Shown: piece after piece, positions 6,154-27,170 of the stretch
How positions within the stretch are numbered: position 1 is the stretch's first letter
Layout of the letters: every line of letters begins with the position of its first letter
Origin: a virus
DNA: 34,636 nucleotides
Virus record (IMG/VR): IMGVR_UViG_3300009684_000008
Coordinates: 1 to 34,636 of that record
Reading direction: 5' to 3' (one strand)
Made by a program: the position numbers and the translations under genes
Notes under the pieces: model-generated
What the model was told of the DNA's origin: nothing
The model's database searches: none
The model's input: only the letters and a program-made list of their open reading frames with translations

Positions 6154-8270
6154 ATGCCACCCTGCGGGTTAGGCTGGCCCTGTGGGGGCTGCATCATGCC
6201 AGGCGGCATACGAGGGGCTGCCTGCTCGGCCTTGATGCGTGCGGTGTCTACCGTCGCGCCATAGCGGGCCACGATCTCTGCGGCCTGCAAGGCGAGATCC
6301 TGGGCCATCTTGTCGCGCTCGCGGTCATCGAGCTGCTGGGCCTTCATGGCCTCAAGCTGCACCTTTTGCAGCTCAGCCTGGCCGCGTGCCATAGCCTTCA
6401 TCTGCTCGGCCTGTAGGTAGGCCGCAGATTGCGGGTCTTGTGGCGGGGGCTGGCCTGCAGCGGCCTGCTGCTGCTGTTGAGCGAGCTGCTGCTCCATTTG
6501 GGCATTCATCGGCTTGTAGTAGCGCTCGGAGGTGCGGATACCGGCATTGAAGAGGATGTCAGACAGCGTGTTGCGCAGCTCTGTCAGGCCAACCAGCGGG
6601 TTGCTGGGGCCATAGGTCTGCAGGATCTGCGTCTGGGTCTGCAGCGTGGCAATCAGCGCCTGCTGCTTCTCTTCTTCGCGCCCGGTGCCCAGGCCGATGT
6701 TAATCGACACATCCATCTCGGCGTTCCAAACGCGGGGATCGATCGGCACGAAGGTGTTAGTCAGGCGGGCCATCTCAGGCGCGCGGGCGTGCTTAATGGT
6801 CAGCCGCAACATCAGCCGGAACAGGCTGCGCATGCCGCCCTCGGCCAGATTGCGGGCCATCGTCTCGACCTGCCCTGCGGCTGCTTGGATTGTGGCAGTG
6901 ACGGCAGCCTTGGTGGTGCTTTGGAGGGCGTCAGGGTCAAGGCCTTGAGATGCGCGCGTCACGCCTGTTTTCTCTTCGACGAGCATGTCGATGTATTGAA
7001 GTGCGGGCAGGGTCTGCCCTGCCACAAAGGGCACCGATAAATCCTGAATTTGGCCAACTTGGCGCATGCGGACAATGCCGCCGATCTCGTTATTCATCAG
7101 GTCCGAGACGTTCACCTGGCCCTCGACATAACCAATGCGCGGGCTGTTGGTCATCGTGACGTTGTCGAGGATGCCGCGCAGGGTCGCGGTGGCCGCGTCC
7201 TGCTCGTTCTTGATCAGGTCATAGATCGACCGGCCAAAGAAGGCGTGCGGCTCCGGGTCAATCTCGAAAATGGCGAAAGGGCTCTCGTCGCAGGGGCCAT
7301 AGTCGAGAAGCTCGTAACCGACACCGCCAAGCAGAAAGCGGTGCAGGACGGGCACGCCGGTGCCGTCCACATCGACCCGCATGTAGGCCTCGGTCAGCGT
7401 CACCTTCTTCATTGAAGGGTCGGCGGGGCTCTCGTCATTTGTGACGGTGGTCTTGCGCGGCAAGCGCGCCATGCGCTCTTGCTCGCTCAGATCGTTGCCG
7501 CCATCGTCGAAGCTGCCAAGGTCGGCCACAGCGTCGAAGGCAAAGCCCATCTCAACCAAGTCGCCGACGCGCAGCTCAACACGCTGGCCGTGGATGTATG
7601 CCGTATGGACATCGCGGGCGCGGCTATCGACGAAGAACTCTTCAGGCGGCACGCTGTCCACCATGATCTGGCCATGCGTCTCTGTGCGGCTGATCTTGAT
7701 ATCATGCGCTGCAGCCATCGCTGGCTGGCCGTCAGGGCCAATCACCTGGTCCTGTGATTGCGAGTGCTCGATCACCTCGACGCCAGGCTCGTTGACGACA
7801 AGCATCAGCTCTTCGTCGGTCAGGTCGGTGAACGTGAAGATCTCAGCCTTGGACTTGTCTTCCCACCAGGCCTTGACGATGCCGGTCTTCTTGCGAAGGG
7901 CGTCGTCAAAGGCATCATTGAGAATGCGAAAACCACCAGCCTGCTCGAACTTCTTCTGAACATAGACCGTGGCCTGGGAAGCGCCCGCTACATCTTCGGG
8001 GCCGATCGGGATGAACTCGACGGGCTTTTCATGCGACAGAAAGATCCGCATGAGGCTCGGCTTGATCGCCCGGATGGTGTCGCGGATCTTGGTGGCGACG
8101 ACCTTGGAGCGGCCCTCTTCCTCGCCAATATCCACGCCGCCATCGAAGTAGAGCTGCGCTTTAATGCGTTCGGGGGCGAGGTCGCTTTCAATGAAGCTGA
8201 TAGCATCGCCAATGGCGCTGGAAACCAGCGCCTGCAGCTCATCCTTGGTCTTTGCTTTTAGCTTCGCCAA
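6150..8270 (-). CDS. Portal protein (SU10/P22-like)
   Basis: A 706-aa protein, the usual size of podovirus portals that carry a barrel. It starts with a helical wing segment, has an IRDTIRAIKPSLMRIF motif near residues 62-78, and a central clip/stem region including SIYDLIKNEQDAATATLRG near residues 350-368, both hallmarks of the SU10/BPP-1 portal group. The last 130 residues are rich in Q, A and M (coiled coil, then a Pro/Gly/Met tail), fitting the barrel that extends into the head. The dodecamer is the DNA channel and terminase dock. It follows a likely promoter at 8297-8325 and leads the head gene cluster. Confidence 0.92.
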   Translation of the reverse strand: MAKLKAKTKDELQALVSSAIGDAISFIESDLAPERIKAQLYFDGGVDIGEEEGRSKVVATKIRDTIRAIKPSLMRIFLSHEKPVEFIPIGPEDVAGASQATVYVQKKFEQAGGFRILNDAFDDALRKKTGIVKAWWEDKSKAEIFTFTDLTDEELMLVVNEPGVEVIEHSQSQDQVIGPDGQPAMAAAHDIKISRTETHGQIMVDSVPPEEFFVDSRARDVHTAYIHGQRVELRVGDLVEMGFAFDAVADLGSFDDGGNDLSEQERMARLPRKTTVTNDESPADPSMKKVTLTEAYMRVDVDGTGVPVLHRFLLGGVGYELLDYGPCDESPFAIFEIDPEPHAFFGRSIYDLIKNEQDAATATLRGILDNVTMTNSPRIGYVEGQVNVSDLMNNEIGGIVRMRQVGQIQDLSVPFVAGQTLPALQYIDMLVEEKTGVTRASQGLDPDALQSTTKAAVTATIQAAAGQVETMARNLAEGGMRSLFRLMLRLTIKHARAPEMARLTNTFVPIDPRVWNAEMDVSINIGLGTGREEEKQQALIATLQTQTQILQTYGPSNPLVGLTELRNTLSDILFNAGIRTSERYYKPMNAQMEQQLAQQQQQAAAGQPPPQDPQSAAYLQAEQMKAMARGQAELQKVQLEAMKAQQLDDRERDKMAQDLALQAAEIVARYGATVDTARIKAEQAAPRMPPGMMQPPQGQPNPQGGM

Positions 8271-8296
8271 GTGATGCCCCCATGCGATCTAGGGGC

Positions 8297-8325
8297 AATA
8301 TACAACTTTTACGGGTTGTCTACAA
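8297..8325 (-). promoter_or_regulatory. Likely late promoter upstream of the portal gene, overlapped by a palindrome
   Basis: On the minus strand TTGTAG (8325-8320), a 17-base spacer and TATATT (8302-8297) form a sigma70-like promoter about 27 bases before the portal ATG. The palindrome GGTTGT-CT-ACAACC (8314-8327) covers the -35 box, so a regulator could act here. The -35 match is only half of consensus, so activation may be needed. Confidence 0.45.
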
Positions 8326-12123: not shown

Positions 12124-13581
12124 TCAGGCAACGCCCTTCAAGCCGCGCTTCATTGGCTTGTTCCAGTTGCCGCTCGAGGAGGAGCCGTAGAGGGCCACGG
12201 CAGCGTCAGCTGCCATGGTCATCACGACAGCGTCAGCAAGGTCAGGCGAGCGCAGCCCGCGCTTCTTCAGGTCGCCCTTGCTCTCGACCTGCATCTTGCC
12301 AGAACTGCTGAACTTAAAGCGCGGACCGGCAAGCTCTGCCATCAGATCCTCATCCTTGGGCAGGCGGCAGCCGCGCTGCTCCAGCCAGGCCTTCGTCGCA
12401 AACCACAGCTCGGCCCGCAGGTTGATATAGGTACCCTTCATCGACGGGCTCTCGCTGACGTTAATGCCGCGCGCGGGCAGCTTGAGCTCGCGCAAGCGGT
12501 CAACAACGCCAGATCCAAGGCCAATGCTGTCCACCAAGATCTCGACCGGCTGCAGGTAGGTCGGCTGCGATTGGTACTCGGCCACAACGGCGCCGGTGAG
12601 CTGCATCAGATCGAGACCCGCCCACCGCTTCACCTCGGTGATCACCTGACCCCGGCGCTTCGCCAGGGCCGATCGGTCAGTGCCAAAACGCGCCACATCC
12701 AAAGCCCAGATTGCCGGGGCCTTGTCGTCCTCGACGATGTCGCGGTTCATCGCCGCGTCAGTCAAGTGCATGGGAATGACGGTGTCGTCGTCGGACAGGG
12801 GGAACTCGCCAAGAACGCGCACCCTGAAGGCGTTGCTGTCCTCGCCGTACCGCTGTTTCATCTCCTCGACGTAGACCTTGGACACGCGGGGGCTATCCAC
12901 GCACGACACGCGCTTGGTCCACCAGTGCTCTTTGAGCCGGTTGTGCGTGTCAAAGAAAAAGCCGCTGGATCTCGTCGGGTTGCCAAGAAGGATCGTGGCA
13001 GCCTCAGTGCCAGACATCGACCCCGCCGCAGCCTCAAACACCGCCTCCGGCACACCAGAGGCCTCGTCGGCAATCAGCAGAACATGGTCAGCGTGAATGC
13101 CAGCAAGGGCCTCTGGGCTCTCTGCGCGGCTCGTCCGTGCCGATATAAAGCCGGTTTCCGGCGCAGCCTTGATCTCAATGCGGTCGCTCTTCACGATCAG
13201 CAGCTCTTGGAGCTGCTCCGGCAGCTGGTTCACCCAGCGCTTAATCTCGGCAAACAAGGCGTCGAAGAGCTGCGCGCTGGTCGGTGCCGTGATCACGATC
13301 TTGACCGGGTAGCGGGTCAGCAAGAACCAGATGCACAAGATGGCCACCGTCGTCGACTTGCCAACGCCGTGGCCGGAACGGATCGAGATGCGGCGCTCGC
13401 CGGTGGCCACGGCCATCATCACCTCGGCCTGCCATGGGTCGAGATCGATCCCCAGCACCTCCTTGGCAAACAGCACAGGATCGTCACGGTAGCGGCGCAC
13501 CCAATCAACGAAGGCATTCGCATCCGGCAACGGCGGAGCCGGGCCCGCCATGGCCTTGTCGCGCTCTTCGCGCGCCGTCAA
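12124..13581 (-). CDS. terL: Terminase large subunit
   Basis: A 485-aa DNA-packaging motor. The ATPase has Walker A at residues 69-77 (SGHGVGKST) and Walker B at about 166-173 (HVLLIADE, with the following Glu as catalytic). The nuclease domain has Asp295 in ALDVARFGTD, Asp351 in VDSIGLG and Asp447/Asp450 in RSPDLADAV, the expected RNase H-like triad. It docks on the portal, pumps DNA into the head and cuts it. The frame opens at TTG 13581 (TTGA overlap with the previous stop); ATG 13551 inside it is an alternative. The circularly closed contig would suit headful cutting, but this cannot be shown from the gene alone. Confidence 0.95.
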   Translation of the reverse strand: MTAREERDKAMAGPAPPLPDANAFVDWVRRYRDDPVLFAKEVLGIDLDPWQAEVMMAVATGERRISIRSGHGVGKSTTVAILCIWFLLTRYPVKIVITAPTSAQLFDALFAEIKRWVNQLPEQLQELLIVKSDRIEIKAAPETGFISARTSRAESPEALAGIHADHVLLIADEASGVPEAVFEAAAGSMSGTEAATILLGNPTRSSGFFFDTHNRLKEHWWTKRVSCVDSPRVSKVYVEEMKQRYGEDSNAFRVRVLGEFPLSDDDTVIPMHLTDAAMNRDIVEDDKAPAIWALDVARFGTDRSALAKRRGQVITEVKRWAGLDLMQLTGAVVAEYQSQPTYLQPVEILVDSIGLGSGVVDRLRELKLPARGINVSESPSMKGTYINLRAELWFATKAWLEQRGCRLPKDEDLMAELAGPRFKFSSSGKMQVESKGDLKKRGLRSPDLADAVVMTMAADAAVALYGSSSSGNWNKPMKRGLKGVA

Positions 13582-13796
13582 TTCACCCGCTCCTGCACCA
13601 AAGGCTCAAAGCCGTCGATCTCGATCTCGTCCGCCATCTCGCGCAGTAGGTCGATGGCGTCGTCTTCGCTGAGAGAGGTGACGGTCGTCACCTCACCCTT
13701 GGCGTCAGACCTGATCAGGATAAAGTCATCGTCTGGGCCGAAGTCCATTAGGGTGCGCTGGATCGCTGGCTTATCGCCCTCACTCATCGGTGACAT
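13578..13796 (-). CDS. Small acidic protein between the terminase genes (72 aa)
   Basis: ATG 13796 has GGAGG six bases upstream inside the end of the small terminase gene, so it is the better start; ATG 13787 is the alternative. The product is acidic, with a short beta hairpin (DDDFILIRSDAKGEVTTV) and a helix (SEDDAIDLLREMADEIEI). Its stop overlaps the large terminase start. Coupling with both terminase genes suggests a packaging or structural cofactor, but I do not recognise the family. Confidence 0.68.
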   Translation of the reverse strand: MSPMSEGDKPAIQRTLMDFGPDDDFILIRSDAKGEVTTVTSLSEDDAIDLLREMADEIEIDGFEPLVQERVN

Positions 13797-14274
13797 CGAC
13801 AGCCTCCGCGTCTATGGGCTCGTTGGCCGTTTGGTCTGCCGGTTCGCTGATGGTGATCGCAATCTCTGACTGCACCTTGCGCAGGGCGTCGAGGTGCAAG
13901 CCGCCAATGCTGATATTCACCTGCGCCGTCTTGACGCCAAAGCGGTCGGGGTCATCGACCCCCGCCAGCCACCGCCGAGTGTCTATGCGGATCTTGGCCT
14001 TATTGATCGCGTTCGGGTCTTCGGGCACGTTGTCAGCAATGTCGAGCGTCTCCTCCGCCCACCTCTCCGCCCGCCCCCGGCGGGCCACAATGATCCGCTC
14101 GCGCACACCCGGCGTTCTGTTCAGGGTCATTCCAAGCATCTGCCGCGAAATGCCAAGCTCTGTCGCGATCGACTGAAACGTGTCGCCGTTCTCGATCCGA
14201 TCAATGACCGCATCAACGCCGCCCATCTTGGTAATGTCGGCCCACATCTGGAGCTCGATCTTCTTGCCAGCCAT
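13780..14274 (-). CDS. terS: Terminase small subunit (probable)
   Basis: A 164-aa protein with an N-terminal helix-turn-helix: the helix pair around residues 33-52 (FQSIATELGISRQMLGMTLN) would bind packaging-site DNA. It is followed by a long helix (RRGRAERWAEETLDIADN) used for oligomer formation, then the KIRIDTRRWLAGVDDPDRFG pattern found in many small terminase proteins, and an acidic tail. It sits two genes before the large subunit. It would recognise the pac or cos site, which often lies in or near its own gene; the structured gap just upstream (14275-14927) is a candidate. Confidence 0.83.
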   Translation of the reverse strand: MAGKKIELQMWADITKMGGVDAVIDRIENGDTFQSIATELGISRQMLGMTLNRTPGVRERIIVARRGRAERWAEETLDIADNVPEDPNAINKAKIRIDTRRWLAGVDDPDRFGVKTAQVNISIGGLHLDALRKVQSEIAITISEPADQTANEPIDAEAVDVTDE

Positions 14275-14709
14275 TGTGCTACCCCCGCCGCAGGTCTTGC
14301 GGCTATCTCATCTATCGCCACCATAGGCCGCGTTTGGCCAGTAAGGCAGGGGTGCCACCCTCCCGCGCCTTCCCCGCCATTATGGTTCCTGTGCGGTCCA
14401 TGTTTGAGAAGGTGCAGGTGGGCGACAAAAAAATGCCCCAGTGCGCGATAGCGCCCCAGGGCAAGTTAGCTGCAGAACCACCGGGAGGTGAGCGGCGCAG
14501 CGATGGTCGCCGTCCAGGCCTATGGATTGGTCTAGGTGTCGTTTTGGAAGGGAGCAAGGGGGTGGGCGCGGAGCGGGTTTTTCTATAATTTGCACAATTT
14601 TTTTTCGGTGAGTGTCGACCTGTCATTGACGCGGCGGGGGCGTCGGCGCGGGGCCGGGGGGGGTGCGCGCGGGCCCTGCCCTGCCCCGCATCGGGCCGCA
14701 TTCCGCTCT

Positions 14710-14725
14710 ATGTTATCGATAACAT
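14710..14725. promoter_or_regulatory. 16-bp perfect palindrome
   Basis: ATGTTATC followed directly by GATAACAT. It lies in the gene-free stretch, next to a second imperfect palindrome. The symmetry suggests a binding site for a dimeric DNA-binding protein. No partner can be named. Confidence 0.5.
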
Positions 14726-14813
14726 CCGATAATGCGTATTATGTAAAGTCTCGGTCATAACGATATCAATGGGTTAGCCGCTTTGGGGTATCAGAACACC
14801 GCGTTTATTCCCC

Positions 14814-14915
14814 TCGGTAAACACCGACCCCCTCGATCGGGGCAAAACGCTATAGCTGGACGGCTATAACGTCGGCCTCTCGCGAGGGTTGCGGCACGGT
14901 TCGGCGTCTCGCCGA
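14814..14915. other. Cluster of four hairpins (structured RNA, terminator or packaging site)
   Basis: Four inverted repeats lie in about 100 bases: TCGGT-AAAC-ACCGA (14814-14827), CCCC-6 nt-GGGG (14829-14842), TATAGC-TGGACG-GCTATA (14851-14868, extended by ACG/CGT with one mismatch) and TCGGCG-TCT-CGCCGA (14901-14915). They start 13 bases beyond the stop of the last minus-strand early gene, so they could end its transcript, but no long U-run follows. Confidence 0.5.
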
Positions 14916-14927
14916 GGGGCTCCGATG

Positions 14928-15251
14928 TCAGGTTGGCACTGTGCGCAAGCGCACACTCAGCCCTCCGAACCCCCCGCTTGTGCGCAACTGCGCACGGTCA
15001 CGCTCGAGCTCTAGCCGGTCACCGATCAGGTGCGACACGATGTCGAACTCGCGCTGCACATCGGCAAGCGTGCGCTGATCGAGTGCGACGATTGAGCCGT
15101 CGCGCGCTTCCACGCTTTCGATCAGCTCCATCACCATGTCATGCAGGCGCATGCCGGTGACATCGTCACCGATCTGCAGCATCACACTGCCATGATCGAG
15201 CGACATGCCTACGTTCATCGTCACCCGCATCGTGCCATCAAACTTGCTCAT
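14928..15251 (-). CDS. Hypothetical early protein (107 aa)
   Basis: ATG 15251 overlaps the previous stop (ATGA). The product has an N-terminal beta-rich part (DGTMRVTMNVGMSLDHGSVM) and a C-terminal long charged helix (LADVQREFDIVSHLIGDRLE). No catalytic motif, signal or membrane segment is seen, and I do not recognise it. It is the last gene of the minus-strand early group, just before the hairpin cluster. Confidence 0.65.
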   Translation of the reverse strand: MSKFDGTMRVTMNVGMSLDHGSVMLQIGDDVTGMRLHDMVMELIESVEARDGSIVALDQRTLADVQREFDIVSHLIGDRLELERDRAQLRTSGGFGGLSVRLRTVPT

Positions 15252-18387: not shown

Positions 18388-18557
18388 TGGCTCACCCCAT
18401 GCTGTTTAGCCTGCCATCACCTTAAGCATGGTGGACTGCACGAGCAACCGTTCCGGTTATTTAATCTGCACCAAATCGGTAATTGGCTGTTGACTTACCA
18501 TTCTGGTTGGCGGATGGTCTACCAAGACGGAAGCAACACAAAACGAGGACCAACGCC
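18388..18557. promoter_or_regulatory. Divergent early control region with three operator-like palindromes
   Basis: Three copies of an 11-bp palindrome lie between the Cro-like gene and the plus-strand operon: ACCG-TTC-CGGT (18447-18457, within AACCG-TTC-CGGTT), ACCA-AAT-CGGT (18470-18480) and ACCA-TTC-TGGT (18497-18507), centres 23 and 27 bp apart. A plus-strand -35 box TTGACT (18490-18495) touches the third site, but its -10 is poor. The AT-rich TTATTTAA at 18457-18464, between sites one and two, may serve the leftward promoter. An outward-facing TGGT-CT-ACCA lies at 18515-18524. The layout resembles the three-operator immunity region of lambda. Confidence 0.72.
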
Positions 18558-18770
18558 ATGAACGCCAATCAACAGATCGACAAGTTGAAGTCACAAGGCC
18601 AATACCGCGACGCCGGTATCATAGCGGCAGCAAACGGGAAGGGCCGCTCCTATGGCTGCCACTTTGGGATGCGCTCGGGATTGAACGCCGCCGTTGAAGC
18701 GTTTCAAGCGGGCTTTGATGAATTTGAAGCGGCAGAGCGCCACGCCCGCCATCTGTCAGCGTCCAACTGA
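18558..18770 (+). CDS. First gene of the rightward early operon, unknown (70 aa)
   Basis: ATG 18558 has GAGGA eight bases upstream. The 70-aa protein is helical and Gly/Ala-rich, with a NGKGRSYGCHFGMRSG centre and a C-terminal helix (AFQAGFDEFEAAERHARHL). No family is recognised. As first gene after the operator region it may be an early host-takeover or regulatory protein. The hairpin at 18782-18802 starts 11 bases after its stop. Confidence 0.72.
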   Translation: MNANQQIDKLKSQGQYRDAGIIAAANGKGRSYGCHFGMRSGLNAAVEAFQAGFDEFEAAERHARHLSASN

Positions 18771-18781
18771 CCCATCGGTTC

Positions 18782-18802
18782 GCTGGCCCCGGCAGGGCCA
18801 GC
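18782..18802 (+). terminator. Strong hairpin after the first early gene (possible attenuator)
   Basis: GCTGGCCC, a five-base loop CGGCA and GGGCCAGC make a perfect eight-pair GC-rich stem. No U-run follows, so a full stop of transcription is unlikely. It may pause polymerase, protect the upstream message end, or lower downstream gene dose. Confidence 0.45.
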
Positions 18803-18827
18803 ATCCAATGCGCCAGGGAGGATGCAA

Positions 18828-19022
18828 ATGCTGAAACTGAAAGAGCTCACCGAAGAGAGGCTGACAGCGATGTTGGTAGACGCTGATGAGGCGCTGACGC
18901 GCCGCATCGAGATGCGCGGCACTAGCACGCTCAAGTCCGATCAGGCTTGGGTCGATGAGGCGTATTGCCGCGTCATGTTCCTGCGCCAAGAGGTTGCAGC
19001 GCGGGCGGCCAAGAAGCCGTGA
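18828..19022 (+). CDS. Hypothetical early protein (64 aa)
   Basis: ATG 18828 lies six bases after GGGAGG, so it is preferred to the in-frame ATG at 18822, which is too close. The protein (MLKLKELTEERLTAMLVDAD...) is a helical, charged coil with a basic end (ARAAKKP). No family is recognised. Its stop overlaps the GTG of the next gene (GTGA). Confidence 0.7.
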   Translation: MLKLKELTEERLTAMLVDADEALTRRIEMRGTSTLKSDQAWVDEAYCRVMFLRQEVAARAAKKP

Positions 19023-19333
19023 AGCACGACACAGCTCAATCGCTTTGGCACCGGGTGCTGGTGCAGGCGGTCCGCGATGCGGTGGCTTCACCTAACGTCG
19101 TCCGCAAGAACGACAGGCTGGCCATTGGGCACGCTCAGAGCTGGCTCGAGAGTGGCGGCAATGACTTCGCCACCGTCTGCACTCTGGCAGGGCGCGACCC
19201 TGACCAGACCCGCGAATGGTGGCTCTCGATCAAAGACGATCCGGCAAAAATCACAGCCGTAAGGCTGAACATGAGGGATACAGGCAATGACACATCAAGC
19301 GCCGGTAAGCAGTTACCCAGCGATCAAAGATGA
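19019..19333 (+). CDS. Hypothetical early protein (104 aa)
   Basis: The start GTG 19019 overlaps the previous stop. Residues about 30-65 (DRLAIGHAQSWLESGGNDFA and the following TVCTLAGRDPDQTREW) match a pattern I have seen in small proteins of alphaproteobacterial phages, where a DF..VC.LAG.DP helix recurs; the function is unknown. The C-terminal 20 residues are polar. It overlaps the next gene by 47 bases. Confidence 0.65.
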   Translation: MKHDTAQSLWHRVLVQAVRDAVASPNVVRKNDRLAIGHAQSWLESGGNDFATVCTLAGRDPDQTREWWLSIKDDPAKITAVRLNMRDTGNDTSSAGKQLPSDQR

Positions 19334-19553
19334 CCAGATCCGGCAGGAATTGCAGTTTGCTTTGCACGACTGGCTCGACGGCCAGATCACCGATCGGCGT
19401 GTGACTGCGCGCCAGGCGCGGAACCGCCCCTTGCCACACCATGAGGCCGAGATGCTGAAGTCGGCATTCAATCTTGCCACCGAGGGCCGCATCTCGGTCA
19501 TTGTGAAGAAGAAGGACGGCATCACGACCTTCCTCGCGGAGCGTGTGCTGTGA
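19287..19553 (+). CDS. Hypothetical early protein (88 aa)
   Basis: ATG 19287 starts inside the previous gene in another frame. The protein has a helical body with basic residues (DRRVTARQARNRPLPHHEAE) and ends with a beta hairpin (RISVIVKKKDGITTFLAERV). No catalytic motif is visible, and no family is recognised. Its TGA overlaps a GTG that starts a 26-aa membrane peptide. Confidence 0.65.
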   Translation: MTHQAPVSSYPAIKDDQIRQELQFALHDWLDGQITDRRVTARQARNRPLPHHEAEMLKSAFNLATEGRISVIVKKKDGITTFLAERVL

Positions 19554-19630
19554 GCGCTGCGAAGGCCATCGAGCTGGCAGCCGAGATCTTCGTGTGCGCC
19601 GTGTTCTTTTATGTCTTCTGTCTTCTGTAA
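19550..19630 (+). CDS. Tiny membrane peptide (26 aa), translationally coupled
   Basis: GTG 19550 overlaps the previous stop by four bases (GTGA) and opens 26 codons to TAA 19630. The product (MSAAKAIELAAEIFVCAVFF, then YVFCLL) is a single membrane helix. Coupling and composition suggest a real peptide, perhaps acting on the host membrane or a membrane enzyme. It is followed by a seven-T run (19642-19648) and then the internal promoter before the Sak4-like gene. Confidence 0.5.
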   Translation: MSAAKAIELAAEIFVCAVFFYVFCLL

Positions 19631-21112: not shown

Positions 21113-21591
21113 AACCCAGGGTCACGATCAGGTCCAAGGGGGAGGCGCGTCAGCCGCCCTTGCCCCCCTCACCTTCGGACGAGGCGCAGAGGGCGGCGCT
21201 GAATGCAGCCGCTGACACGCTGGCCCGGATCTGCCCTGCCGCCAAGCTTCAGGCCACGCAGATCGCCGAGTGGGTCATCACTGCGCACATTATGAAGTTG
21301 GCGGAATTGGCCCACACAGATCCGGCGATTGAAGCAGCTCTCACATCGGAAAGGCCTTGGGACATGGTCCGTTTAGTCGACAAGACGAAGCAAGAAGAGG
21401 CGGCCAGTCTTGGCGCGCTGCCGATCGTTGGTGACCTCGTCGCCGAGATGGACCCAGACGGGGTCAAGCCGCTGTTCGCGTATTCCAAGGACGAGATCGT
21501 CCGGGTGTTCGAGGCGGTGATCTGGTGCTGGGAAGAGAGCCGGTCGAGCCGGTCGAAGCTCGGCATTCTGGACGAAGACATTCCTTTTTGA
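21109..21591 (+). CDS. Recombination-module protein ending in an SSB-type acidic tip (160 aa)
   Basis: The frame opens at TTG 21109, overlapping the SSB-like gene's stop. The N-terminus is basic and Pro-rich (MKPRVTIRSKGEARQPPLPP), the middle helical. The last residues, SKLGILDEDIPF, closely resemble the SSB C-terminal tip (DDDIPF) that recruits replication and repair proteins in bacteria. I recognise no other domain. With the SSB-like protein lacking this tip, the two may act as a pair, one binding DNA, the other recruiting host partners. This is inference from the sequence tip and gene order. Confidence 0.68.
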   Translation: MKPRVTIRSKGEARQPPLPPSPSDEAQRAALNAAADTLARICPAAKLQATQIAEWVITAHIMKLAELAHTDPAIEAALTSERPWDMVRLVDKTKQEEAASLGALPIVGDLVAEMDPDGVKPLFAYSKDEIVRVFEAVIWCWEESRSSRSKLGILDEDIPF

Positions 21592-21603: not shown

Positions 21604-22362
21604 ATGGATATCGATCTCAACAGCACAACGCTCCTGCGCAACATGGAAGGCCAGCCCATCATCGATGCGATGGACCGCGCCATCCTGGCCAAGCAGGCCA
21701 AGCAGACGCCGCGCCAGTACCTTGGCGGCTCGTACATCGGCAACGACTGCGAGCGCCAGATCCAGTATCAGTACACGGTCACGCCGGTGGATGAAGGCCG
21801 AGGTTTCCCCGCCAACATCCTGCGGGTATTCGAGCGCGGGCACATCACCGAGGACATGGCCGCCGCCTGGCTGCGCGAAGCTGGGTTCATCCTCAAGACC
21901 GAGGGGGCCGATGGCAAGCAGTTCGGCTTCTCATCCGCCCTGGGCCGCTTCAAGGGCCATGCTGACGGCGTGATCACTGGCTGGAAGGGCGAGGGCGAAG
22001 CGCCGTGTGCCATGCCCGCCCTCTGGGAGAACAAGGCCCTGAACACCAAGACCTGGGCCAAGGTCGCGCAGCGCGGCGTCAAGAAGGTCAAGCCCGTCTA
22101 TTACGCTCAGGTCGCGCTGTACCAGTACCATCTACAGCTGATGGACAACCCGGCGATCTTCACCTTCGTGAACGCCGACACGATGCAGATCGGCGTCGAG
22201 CTGGTCCACTTCGACCCTCTCGAATGCCAGCGCATGATCGACCGTGCCGCGCGGATCATCCAGGCGACCGACGCGCAGGACCAGCTGCCGCGCATCTCCA
22301 GCGAGGCCGACCACTTCGCCTGCCGGTTCTGCTCGTTCAATGCGCGTTGCTGGAATACTTGA
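21604..22362 (+). CDS. Cas4/RecB-like PD-(D/E)XK exonuclease with a likely Fe-S cluster (252 aa)
   Basis: Catalytic residues fit the family: His80 (ERGH), Asp121 in GHADGVI, Glu142 and Lys144 in LWENKAL, and Gln169 in YYAQVALYQ. Four Cys placed as in Cas4/AddB-type nucleases (Cys49 near the start; Cys240, Cys243 and Cys249 in CRFCSFNARCW) could hold a 4Fe-4S cluster. Such phage enzymes degrade DNA ends to give single strands for Sak4-type pairing. The gene lies ten bases before the primase gene and on the same transcript as the SSB-like and Sak4-like genes. There is no CRISPR or Cas1/Cas2 nearby. Confidence 0.88.
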   Translation: MDIDLNSTTLLRNMEGQPIIDAMDRAILAKQAKQTPRQYLGGSYIGNDCERQIQYQYTVTPVDEGRGFPANILRVFERGHITEDMAAAWLREAGFILKTEGADGKQFGFSSALGRFKGHADGVITGWKGEGEAPCAMPALWENKALNTKTWAKVAQRGVKKVKPVYYAQVALYQYHLQLMDNPAIFTFVNADTMQIGVELVHFDPLECQRMIDRAARIIQATDAQDQLPRISSEADHFACRFCSFNARCWNT

Positions 22363-22372
22363 AGGATCTGTC

Positions 22373-22894
22373 GTGGCACAAATCATCGACTTCAACCTAG
22401 TCCTGGCTGCCGCTCCGCGCAGCATCTCATTCGACGAGGCCGAGCGCCGTTTCATGGAGCTGGCCGCGTCGATCGGGATAGACACGCGGGATATCAACAG
22501 CTTCGGGCCGACAGATGATGTTGTTCGGGTCGATACGATTGACGACAAGCGCGGCAAGCGGTCGGGCTGGTATTGCATCCACGAAGAGGCGGGGCTGCTG
22601 TATGGCGTCCTGGGCAACTGGAAGACCGGCGAACAGACCAAGTTCTATGGCCGCGACGAGCGCCAGATCGATGTCGAGCTGCTTGCCACAATGCGGATCA
22701 AGCAACAGATCCGAGAGCGCGAGGCTGCGGAGATTAAGCGCAAGAACGCCGCAGAAGCTGCAGAGATGATACGCTTTTGCAGAAGTGCCCAGACGATCAC
22801 CCCTACCTGGTACGCAAGCGGATCAAGCCAAACGGCACACTGGTCATGGGATCTGACCTACTTCTGCCGATCTATGACATGGACGGCAACGTGA
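22373..22894 (+). pseudogene. Primase-helicase, N-terminal fragment (frame broken at 22775-22778)
   Basis: GTG 22373 has AAGGAT seven bases upstream and opens a frame beginning MAQIIDFNLVLAAAPRSISF. It carries the SGWYCIHEEAGLLYGVLGNW and TGEQTKFYG parts of the N-terminal domain seen in Toprim primases of phages. Past about 22776 the reading becomes nonsense (RSAQTITPTWYASG...) until a stop at 22894, while the primase continues in the -1 frame. One added T in the CGCTTTTGC tract would fuse both as ...EMIRFLQKCPDDHPYLVRKR.... So this is one gene split by a frameshift, either a real mutation, an assembly error, or programmed slippage. Confidence 0.72.
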
Positions 22895-25737: not shown

Positions 25738-25955
25738 TCCAAACCTCGCCAGTTTGTCAGCCTTAGTGGCAAGACACACACATGATTGCAAGCGCTGAAG
25801 CGGACTGAACTTACACACAGCATTTGCTCGTGTTTAAGTAGTTTCTGACTAGAATATTTCAACCGTAGTGGTTATCTTTATCATGAATTTCAGAAACAGA
25901 AAGGGGAATTCAATGGTTATCCACAGGATTTACAATCTTAACGGGAGGGGTCGGC
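25738..25955. promoter_or_regulatory. Repressor/integrase intergenic control region with one operator-like site
   Basis: The divergent region holds ACCG-TAG-TGGT at 25862-25872 inside AACCG-TAG-TGGTTAT, almost the same as the first early site (AACCG-TTC-CGGTTAT). A plus-strand TAGAAT (25850-25855) lies just before it and could be a -10 box for the integrase, with TTGCTC 20 bases upstream (too far for a good fit). On the minus strand TTGAAA at about 25861-25856 could be a -35 for the repressor, with a poor -10. CACACA-type repeats occur near 25770-25820. Confidence 0.55.
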
Positions 25956-25969
25956 GTGTCACGATCTAG
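25913..25969 (+). CDS. 18-aa leader frame overlapping the integrase start
   Basis: ATG 25913 with AAAGGGGAATTCA before it opens MVIHRIYNLNGRGRRVTI and stops at TAG 25967-25969, past the integrase GTG at 25956. Translation of this leader could hide or feed the integrase start, whose own site (GGGAGGGG) lies inside it. It may be a regulatory leader or chance. Confidence 0.35.
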   Translation: MVIHRIYNLNGRGRRVTI

Positions 25970-27170
25970 CCTCCCCTTAGATGGCAGCGACCCACTGGCT
26001 GCGCCGGGGCTCATGCAAGTCAAAGACTTCCTCTATTGGCGCGCCCCGCGCCCAGACATCAGGGCGGGGCATAGTTCCAGCTCAGTCCGTCTTCCGGGGC
26101 GTGCCGGTGACGGCCAAGATGCGGCCCGCGCCAAGCTTTGCCGCAAGCTCGAGGCCGATCTGATCCGCTGGCGCGCCAAGCTCGCTAAGCCCGCCAAAAG
26201 CGCCAAGCCCACCCAGCGAACATTGGCGCACTCATGGCGTTGGATTATGAGGCGATACCTCACTGACGAGTTCAGCCCGTTCAGCGAGGTTAAGGCCAAT
26301 ACGCAGGTCAGCTATCGCGACGAGCTGGCATATTGGGACGAGGCCATTGGCAACGTCTTAGTGTCCGCCACCGACTATGTGGCGATTAAGCGCTTGCAGC
26401 GCGACATGCAGGCTGGTGGTCGATCGCTATCATTCATCGCCCGTAAGTTCACGATGCTGCGCATCGTGGCGAACTATGGTGCCGCGATTGCCCCAAAGAT
26501 GTTTATCGATATCCGCATGATCCTTTCGACCATCAGGTTTAAGAAGCCTGGCCCGCGTGACGTTTTCCCGACTGAGGCGCAGGTCATGGCAATCATCAAT
26601 GTCTGCGACGATGCAGGCGATCCAATGATGGCCCTGGGGTTGGCACTGCAATGGTGGCTGACGCTGCGCGCCAGAGATGTGCGCGGGGATTGGATGGGCA
26701 CAGGCAAGGACGCCCGTTGGGTGGATGGCCTAACCTGGTCCATGATCAAGGGCGACATGGCCGAGATCCGCAAGGTCGTCTCTAAGACGGCTGCCAGCGA
26801 TCCGCGTGAGATGGTTTGGGATCTGTCACCTTTGCCAGACATCCAGGCCCGCCTTCGCGCCATCCCACTCGATCAGCGTGTCGGCCCGGTGATCCGGCAG
26901 CCGGATGGCCAGCCGTTCCACCGCAATCGGTTCACGGAAAAGTTCAGAAAGTATCGCGCGGTCGCTGGGGTACACAAAGATGTGAAGATGATGGACACCC
27001 GCGCGGGGGCGATCAATCACGCCAAGAGCCTGGGCGCGACTGAAGTTGAGATGCAGCTTCAGGCTGGTCACGCCTCCTCGAGCACGACGCAACGCTACAT
27101 TCGAGGGCGCGAAGCGGAGGTCAACAAGGTGATCAAACTCAGATCCGGGGGTGCAAAAGAACAGGGGTAG
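25956..27170 (+). CDS. int: Tyrosine integrase
   Basis: A 404-aa recombinase. The catalytic half shows Arg238 in LTLRARDV, Lys277 in VSKTA, Arg349 in MMDTRAG, His372 in AGHASS and the nucleophile Tyr381 in TTQRYIRG. The usual HxxR His is replaced by Met/Asp, as in several phage integrases. The N-terminal part (residues about 85-180) holds a basic core-binding domain. The start GTG 25956 has GGGAGGGG upstream. It faces the attP site 76 bases after its stop, which holds a tRNA-His 3' end, so it inserts the phage in that tRNA gene. No excisionase is recognised. Confidence 0.93.
   Translation: MSRSSLPLDGSDPLAAPGLMQVKDFLYWRAPRPDIRAGHSSSSVRLPGRAGDGQDAARAKLCRKLEADLIRWRAKLAKPAKSAKPTQRTLAHSWRWIMRRYLTDEFSPFSEVKANTQVSYRDELAYWDEAIGNVLVSATDYVAIKRLQRDMQAGGRSLSFIARKFTMLRIVANYGAAIAPKMFIDIRMILSTIRFKKPGPRDVFPTEAQVMAIINVCDDAGDPMMALGLALQWWLTLRARDVRGDWMGTGKDARWVDGLTWSMIKGDMAEIRKVVSKTAASDPREMVWDLSPLPDIQARLRAIPLDQRVGPVIRQPDGQPFHRNRFTEKFRKYRAVAGVHKDVKMMDTRAGAINHAKSLGATEVEMQLQAGHASSSTTQRYIRGREAEVNKVIKLRSGGAKEQG

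Follow-up and report, generated by a model that had tools for sequence, protein, structure and literature searches.

What is the role of the 653-bp stretch at positions 14275-14927 in a viral genome that is otherwise packed with genes? The window, which is the whole 34,636-bp stretch of DNA analyzed here (IMG/VR record IMGVR_UViG_3300009684_000008), codes for both terminase subunits, a portal, structural proteins, a primase/helicase, an S24 repressor, and a divergent tyrosine recombinase. The gap lies between the minus-strand terS gene and a small minus-strand ORF at 14928-15251. The initial annotation had described it as a non-coding, hairpin-rich region that might be a packaging site, a replication origin, or a structured RNA.

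Genome Context of the Gap

The window has a 123-bp exact repeat at its ends, and the assembly is therefore probably circularly complete. A circular assembly would be expected to leave such a repeat, which is no evidence of a direct terminal repeat (DTR). The terS gene (13780-14274, minus strand) codes for an Sf6-like terminase small subunit (PHROG 1482, E 2e-15; Pfam PF20901, E 3e-16), and terL (12124-13581, minus strand) codes for the large subunit (PHROG 2, E 3e-47; the best match, phrog_5902 at E 3e-66, carries no function). Relatives were found with terL as the anchor, and no close DNA relatives of the window were present among GenBank phages. The tyrosine recombinase gene (25956-27170, plus strand) matched PHROG 1 (E 3e-16), with PF00589 below the cut-off and a weak TIGR02225 match. 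Its product reads DTR in place of the usual HxxR.

Three ORFs overlap the gap, at 14312-14701 (minus strand), 14274-14588 (plus strand), and 14536-14760 (plus strand). Unlike in the neighboring genes, their G+C content is not clearly higher at the third than at the second codon position, and ORF 14312-14701 had no PHROG match. Coding ORFs in the gap were ruled out by this composition and the absence of PHROG matches, which confirms that the region upstream of terS is non-coding. A second stretch poor in convincing ORFs lies at 18400-19600, between divergent gene blocks.

A dif-Like Xer Site in the Gap

The 16-bp perfect palindrome noted earlier, ATGTTATCGATAACAT, is indeed present at 14710-14725. 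The window contains one other palindrome of this kind, 44 shuffles contained at least one when the gap was Markov-shuffled 2000 times, and ATGTTATCGATAACAT was absent at the corresponding place in the relatives G001, G004, and L030. It overlaps the XerC arm of a site that the initial annotation had recognized only as an imperfect palindrome (about 14729-14744), and this second palindrome is the core of that site. Judged by its arms and spacing, the imperfect palindrome belongs to a dif-like recombination site for XerC/XerD, 28 bp long and located at 14722-14749 on the plus strand, with XerC arm ACATCCGATAA, center TGCGTA, and XerD arm TTATGTAAAGT. The two 11-bp arms around a 6-bp center follow the layout of known dif sites.

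The site was scored with a position weight matrix (PWM) from 44 published proteobacterial dif sites (PMC2731167), in which the six central bases were ignored. It scored 26.7 bits, within the range of 9 to 34 bits of known dif sites. The best score among 300 Markov shuffles of the window was 15.1 bits (mean best 6.0), and the runner-up place in the window, the site's own reverse strand aside, reached 6.0 bits. The XerD arm is that of the Caulobacter, Bordetella, and Geobacter dif sites (PMC2731167 Table 1), and the XerC arm is identical to that of a chromosomal dif-type site, ACATCCGATAA.TTGGTA.TTATGTAATAA, in a Rhodobacteraceae genome. The pattern TCSGATAA-N6-TTATGTA was present in 27 of 346 Rhodobacteraceae genomes, and the reversed control pattern had one match among the genomes listed.

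Conservation of the Site Beside the Terminase Genes

Dif-like sites were also found near terS/TerL in G001, G004, L030, and phage C72C1, whose TerL proteins are 86, 73, 58, and 47% identical to that of the window and whose site centers are TGTGTA, TCCCGA, TGTGTA, and CGTCCA, respectively. Among the 107 non-redundant IMG/VR loci, that is, the TerL relatives with enough upstream sequence, 62 had a site scoring 12 bits or more in the 2 kb preceding TerL, and none of 109 equal downstream windows had one. The Fisher p of 3e-25 for this difference is optimistic, the loci being related. With a PWM limit of 11, 67 of these loci were dif-positive and 40 dif-negative. Plasmid relatives were found only at less than 60% TerL identity.

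The exact core ATAA-N6-TTATGT had 7 viral matches in the first locus set, all upstream of and antiparallel to TerL. Spacers of 4, 5, 7, and 8 bp gave 1, 1, 0, and 0 upstream core matches, respectively, so the enrichment was confined to the 6-bp spacer. The 47 distinct core sequences retain the arms and the 6-bp spacing and differ freely in the six central bases, the pattern expected of Xer sites. One subfamily has a non-consensus XerC arm (ACTTTATACAA type; scores of 11-21 bits), and for its members the Xer assignment is weaker. The retention of the site at this place across many related uncultured phages suggests that a host recombinase is borrowed and none is made.

The C Tract and the Probable Packaging Terminus

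A C8 tract (G8 on the plus strand) lies at 14656-14663 on the minus strand, about 60 bp from the dif-like site. A C7-9 tract on the terminase-sense strand was found upstream of TerL in 88 of the 107 loci, including 64 of the 67 dif-positive and 24 of the 40 dif-negative loci. In the controls, a tract of C7 or longer had 2 matches in the downstream windows, and the G orientation occurred 3 times. The tract is mostly followed by a G-rich segment able to pair with it as a hairpin.

The deposited record of Sinorhizobium phage phiM5 (MF074189; TerL 56% identical) gives direct terminal repeats at 1-357 and 43648-44005. It contains a matching C9 hairpin at 315-323, and the annotated repeat ends 34 bp beyond the C tract. 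Since the C9 tract of phiM5 sits 34 bp inside the annotated repeat end, the C tract probably marks the packaging terminus in its relatives as well. The gap thus contains a conserved terminus element near TerL, as in phiM5/LUZ24-like DTR packaging. Extrapolation from the 357-bp phiM5 repeat predicts a direct terminal repeat at 14622-14980 (minus strand) of the window. Its right edge would lie at about 14622, and its high-coordinate end is a guess with the length copied from phiM5. Two contigs, L137 and L302, start close to the C tract, 8 and 6 bp ahead of it. This is suggestive only, and contig ends were set aside as direct proof of termini because a homopolymer and hairpin could break assembly.

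The dif-like site was 5' of the C tract in all 71 loci with both elements, at a distance of 13-154 bp, and was antiparallel to TerL in 57 of them and parallel in 14. Given this order, the site should be inside the terminal repeat, and a repeat of the phiM5 length should enclose it. Taken together, the comparison supports the earlier packaging-site proposal, and the gap is likely the DNA-packaging start of a tailed phage.

Elements on the XerD Side of the Site

The accessory element GATATCAATGGGTTAGCC lies at 14762-14779 (plus strand), 12 bp beyond the XerD arm. Its consensus, TCAAT[GA][AG][CG]TTAGC, was found in one subclade, mostly 11-12 bp beyond the XerD arm and always beside a dif-like site. 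There is one copy each in the window, the G019, G020, and C72C1 genomes, and contig G037; G021, with its two dif sites, has two copies. In another subclade the element is replaced by the DnaA-box-like sequence TTATCCACA, at +10, +51, inverted +66, and inverted +89 from the XerD arm. Regularly spaced arrays of TTATCCACA within 100 bp of the dif-like site were observed in L179, L172, L166, L148, and related loci, where they are a possible origin or DnaA-dependent accessory site. The suggestion of a replication origin found no direct support in the window, whose sole DnaA box is at 25917; the arrays beside the dif-like site belong to the sister subclade.

Hairpins in the Gap

The hairpins reported within the gap do exist at 14790-14927, and this cluster would fall inside the predicted terminal repeat. 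They are only mildly more stable than shuffles, with fold z-scores of -1.8 (plus strand) and -2.3 (minus strand), and for the whole gap the values were -1.0 and -2.6, respectively. Only near-identical copies (L018 and L006) of 14790-14927 align, and the other relatives are non-alignable here. Hairpins did not hold up as the main feature of the gap, and the dif-like nature of one palindrome had been overlooked.

A terminator-like hairpin to which the initial annotation had not drawn attention, TGCCCTGGGGCGCTATCGCGCACTGGGGCA followed by a T7 tail, lies at 14463-14427 on the minus strand and reads towards terS (DNA fold z -3.4). A consensus scan did not pick it up. Its stem-loop at 14463-14434 is the strongest single hairpin in the gap, and none of 200 shuffles was equally stable. 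G001 carries an analogous hairpin (GGCCCCCG/CGGGGGCC) upstream of terS. The hairpin separates the upstream minus-strand genes from terS, and antitermination control of the late genes is possible. No tRNA or Rfam family was found in the gap, and the consensus scan found no promoter-like sites there beyond chance.

Recombinase Genes in Phages With and Without the Site

Recombinases were surveyed in 36 contigs of at least 20 kb, one of 19,987 bp included, some of which are incomplete. Among the 20 dif-positive contigs, none coded for a serine recombinase and 2 (the window and G001) coded for a tyrosine recombinase. The remaining 18, including the complete genomes G007, G019, G020, and C72C1, had no recombinase of their own. 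Among the 16 dif-negative contigs, a small serine resolvase-type gene was found in 8, a tyrosine recombinase in 3, and neither in 5. The resolvase genes are open frames of 222-284 aa, mostly in the same orientation as TerL and 0.2-2.5 kb upstream of it; examples of serine resolvase genes upstream of TerL in dif-negative relatives are G026 7620-8297, G014 22226-22663, and G035 12428-12865. The exchange can be seen in the closest sister group, where the phages G023 and G026 have a terS-like gene and then either a dif-like site and C tract (169-bp gap) or a C tract (53-bp gap) and a resolvase.

The anticorrelation between dif-like site and serine resolvase (0/20 vs. 8/16) gave a Fisher p of 4e-4. 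On the TerL tree the presence of the site switches at least 8 times, and there are 4 well-supported independent pairs, for which a sign test was not significant. Because the pairs are so few, the anticorrelation is only suggestive. The tyrosine recombinases of the window (25956-27170) and G001 (14247-15092) are unrelated, both adjoin an S24-type repressor gene, and neither had matches in a PDB sequence search.

Proposed Role of the Site and Alternative Explanations

The explanation that we prefer, and to which we give about an even chance, is that the gap forms the genome end of a temperate tailed phage that resembles phiM5/LUZ24 in its head and terminase, packages its DNA with direct terminal repeats, and relies on host XerCD for monomerization. 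The sequences themselves show that a dif-like site is present and conserved, that it always precedes the C tract on the 5' side, and that the C tract corresponds to the phiM5 DTR edge. In the terminase sense, the dif-like Xer site is followed after about 60 bp by the C8 tract, the probable packaging terminus, and then by the terminator and terS. The terminase cut would fall immediately 3' of the C tract, so that both ends of the virion DNA would carry the terminal repeat and, within it, the dif-like site. Once the DNA has been injected, or in multimers formed by replication, host XerC/XerD may recombine two copies and free a monomeric circle. The job of Cre-loxP in P1 would thus be performed by a borrowed host recombinase.

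Small serine resolvases typically resolve multimers. Circularization or monomerization is favored because of this function of resolvases and because the window and G001 keep the site despite having unrelated recombinases of their own. XerCD at chromosomal dif normally requires activation by FtsK. The proposed mechanism names no activator, and its DTR position derives from extrapolation of the annotation deposited for a single relative. A wider version, which we put forward tentatively and with somewhat less confidence, is that a large uncultured tailed-phage clade keeps the host dif site in its terminal repeat for circularization or monomerization by XerCD, that the site has been swapped in evolution with a phage serine resolvase, and that the XerD-side element (or DnaA-box array) recruits an activator that replaces FtsK. 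No partition genes were recognized among the sampled early genes of dif-positive genomes, so a plasmid-like lysogen is not evident.

The main rival, which is rather unlikely, is that the dif-like site serves as the attP through which an IMEX-type tailed phage integrates, by Xer recombination, at the host chromosomal dif. Filamentous phages, TLCphi, and GGI provide IMEX precedents (PMC5357621), and tailless vibriophages are found at dif (PMC11630473). As in an IMEX, a dif-like site (a putative attP) is present in the window and no integrase of the phage's own was found in the 18 recombinase-less dif-positive contigs; however, the window and G001 do carry their own integrases. Their retention of the site beside these unrelated enzymes argues against integration as its sole role. 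The center TGCGTA has GTA on the XerD side in common with the frequent Rhodobacteraceae dif centers TCAGTA, TCTGTA, and TCGGTA, but many other site centers are unlike chromosomal ones. Moreover, TerL searches of about 1,560 genomes and of a collection of genome contigs found no integrated dif-positive relative; the dif-positive matches were all on short MAG contigs (L046, L056, and L058). The sampled prophage relatives on long host contigs had no strong site, and a pair of strong dif sites was absent from the prophages G040-G043.

The 61.9-kb contig G021 (IMGVR_UViG_3300025570_000015) bears on the same question. In it, two related phages with about 85% identity follow one another head to tail, as expected of a tandem array at dif; the identical 28-bp dif-like sites, at 21290 and 57429 (36,139 bp apart), have the canonical center TGTATA. 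An array at dif, a dimer, or an assembly artifact would each explain this arrangement, which was rejected as proof of integration because strain-mixing assembly is equally possible. Circularization by host XerCD and integration at dif could both apply.

It is improbable that the palindromic core is mainly a packaging signal, bound by terminase or TerS, with its resemblance to dif due to convergence. Its fixed closeness to the C-tract terminus and terS/TerL would agree with such a role, but the core is missing in 40 of the 107 relatives (PWM limit 11), 24 of which still have the C tract, and its orientation is flipped in 14 of 71 loci. In addition, the arms match dif at 22 positions around a free center, which is the signature of Xer sites, and the PWM score is far above those of shuffles. 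It is still harder to regard the core as the attachment core of the phages' own tyrosine integrase, dif-like through shared tyrosine-recombinase ancestry: the window and G001 do encode such enzymes, but these are unrelated to each other and lie more than 11 kb from a site that both phages share, and 18 dif-positive contigs have no recombinase at all. Nor is the gap at all likely to be a structured regulatory RNA or small-RNA gene, as had been suggested, since the T7-tailed hairpin and the modest extra fold stability of the minus strand are set against weak fold z-scores, the absence of an Rfam match, promoter-like sites not above chance, and relatives without an alignable RNA.

Comparison With Known Systems

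Xer sites have so far been known in chromosomes, plasmids, islands, and filamentous (PMC5357621) and tailless (PMC11630473) phages. In the searchable, non-subscription literature, we found no description of tailed phages in which Xer sites are a conserved feature of the packaging region. If true, our proposal would explain the circularization or lysogeny of many tailed phages that lack an integrase and would allow packaging termini to be recognized from sequence in metagenomic genomes. It could also aid host prediction because the arms resemble the dif sites of candidate hosts.

The plasmid sites cer and psi consist of an XerCD core plus accessory DNA, and are interchangeable with resolvase systems in plasmids. 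The phage site resembles these multimer-resolution sites in having a core with accessory DNA, but differs in that its putative accessory elements are on the XerD side. The LUZ24-like phage phiM5 has in common with the window its TerL and the C-tract hairpin at the DTR edge, but it differs in having no dif-like site in the first 6 kb around TerL and in having a tyrosine recombinase (a 311-aa open frame). With the chromosomal dif/XerCD system of proteobacteria, the site shares the 28-bp layout, the 11-bp arms, the 6-bp center, and the arm sequences (Carnoy and Roten, 2009; PMC2731167). Unlike chromosomal dif, it is located on a tailed-phage genome beside the terminase genes, normally once per genome, and has phage-specific flanking elements. 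The IMEX phages CTXphi, VGJphi, and TLCphi similarly carry a dif-like site, mostly without a recombinase (PMC5357621), whereas the phages described here have tailed dsDNA genomes of about 35-39 kb, with the site beside the probable packaging terminus. The proposed role is closest to that of loxP-Cre in P1, in which site-specific recombination keeps the genome monomeric or circular (PMC2409434); however, P1 encodes Cre, and the recombinase here would be host XerCD.
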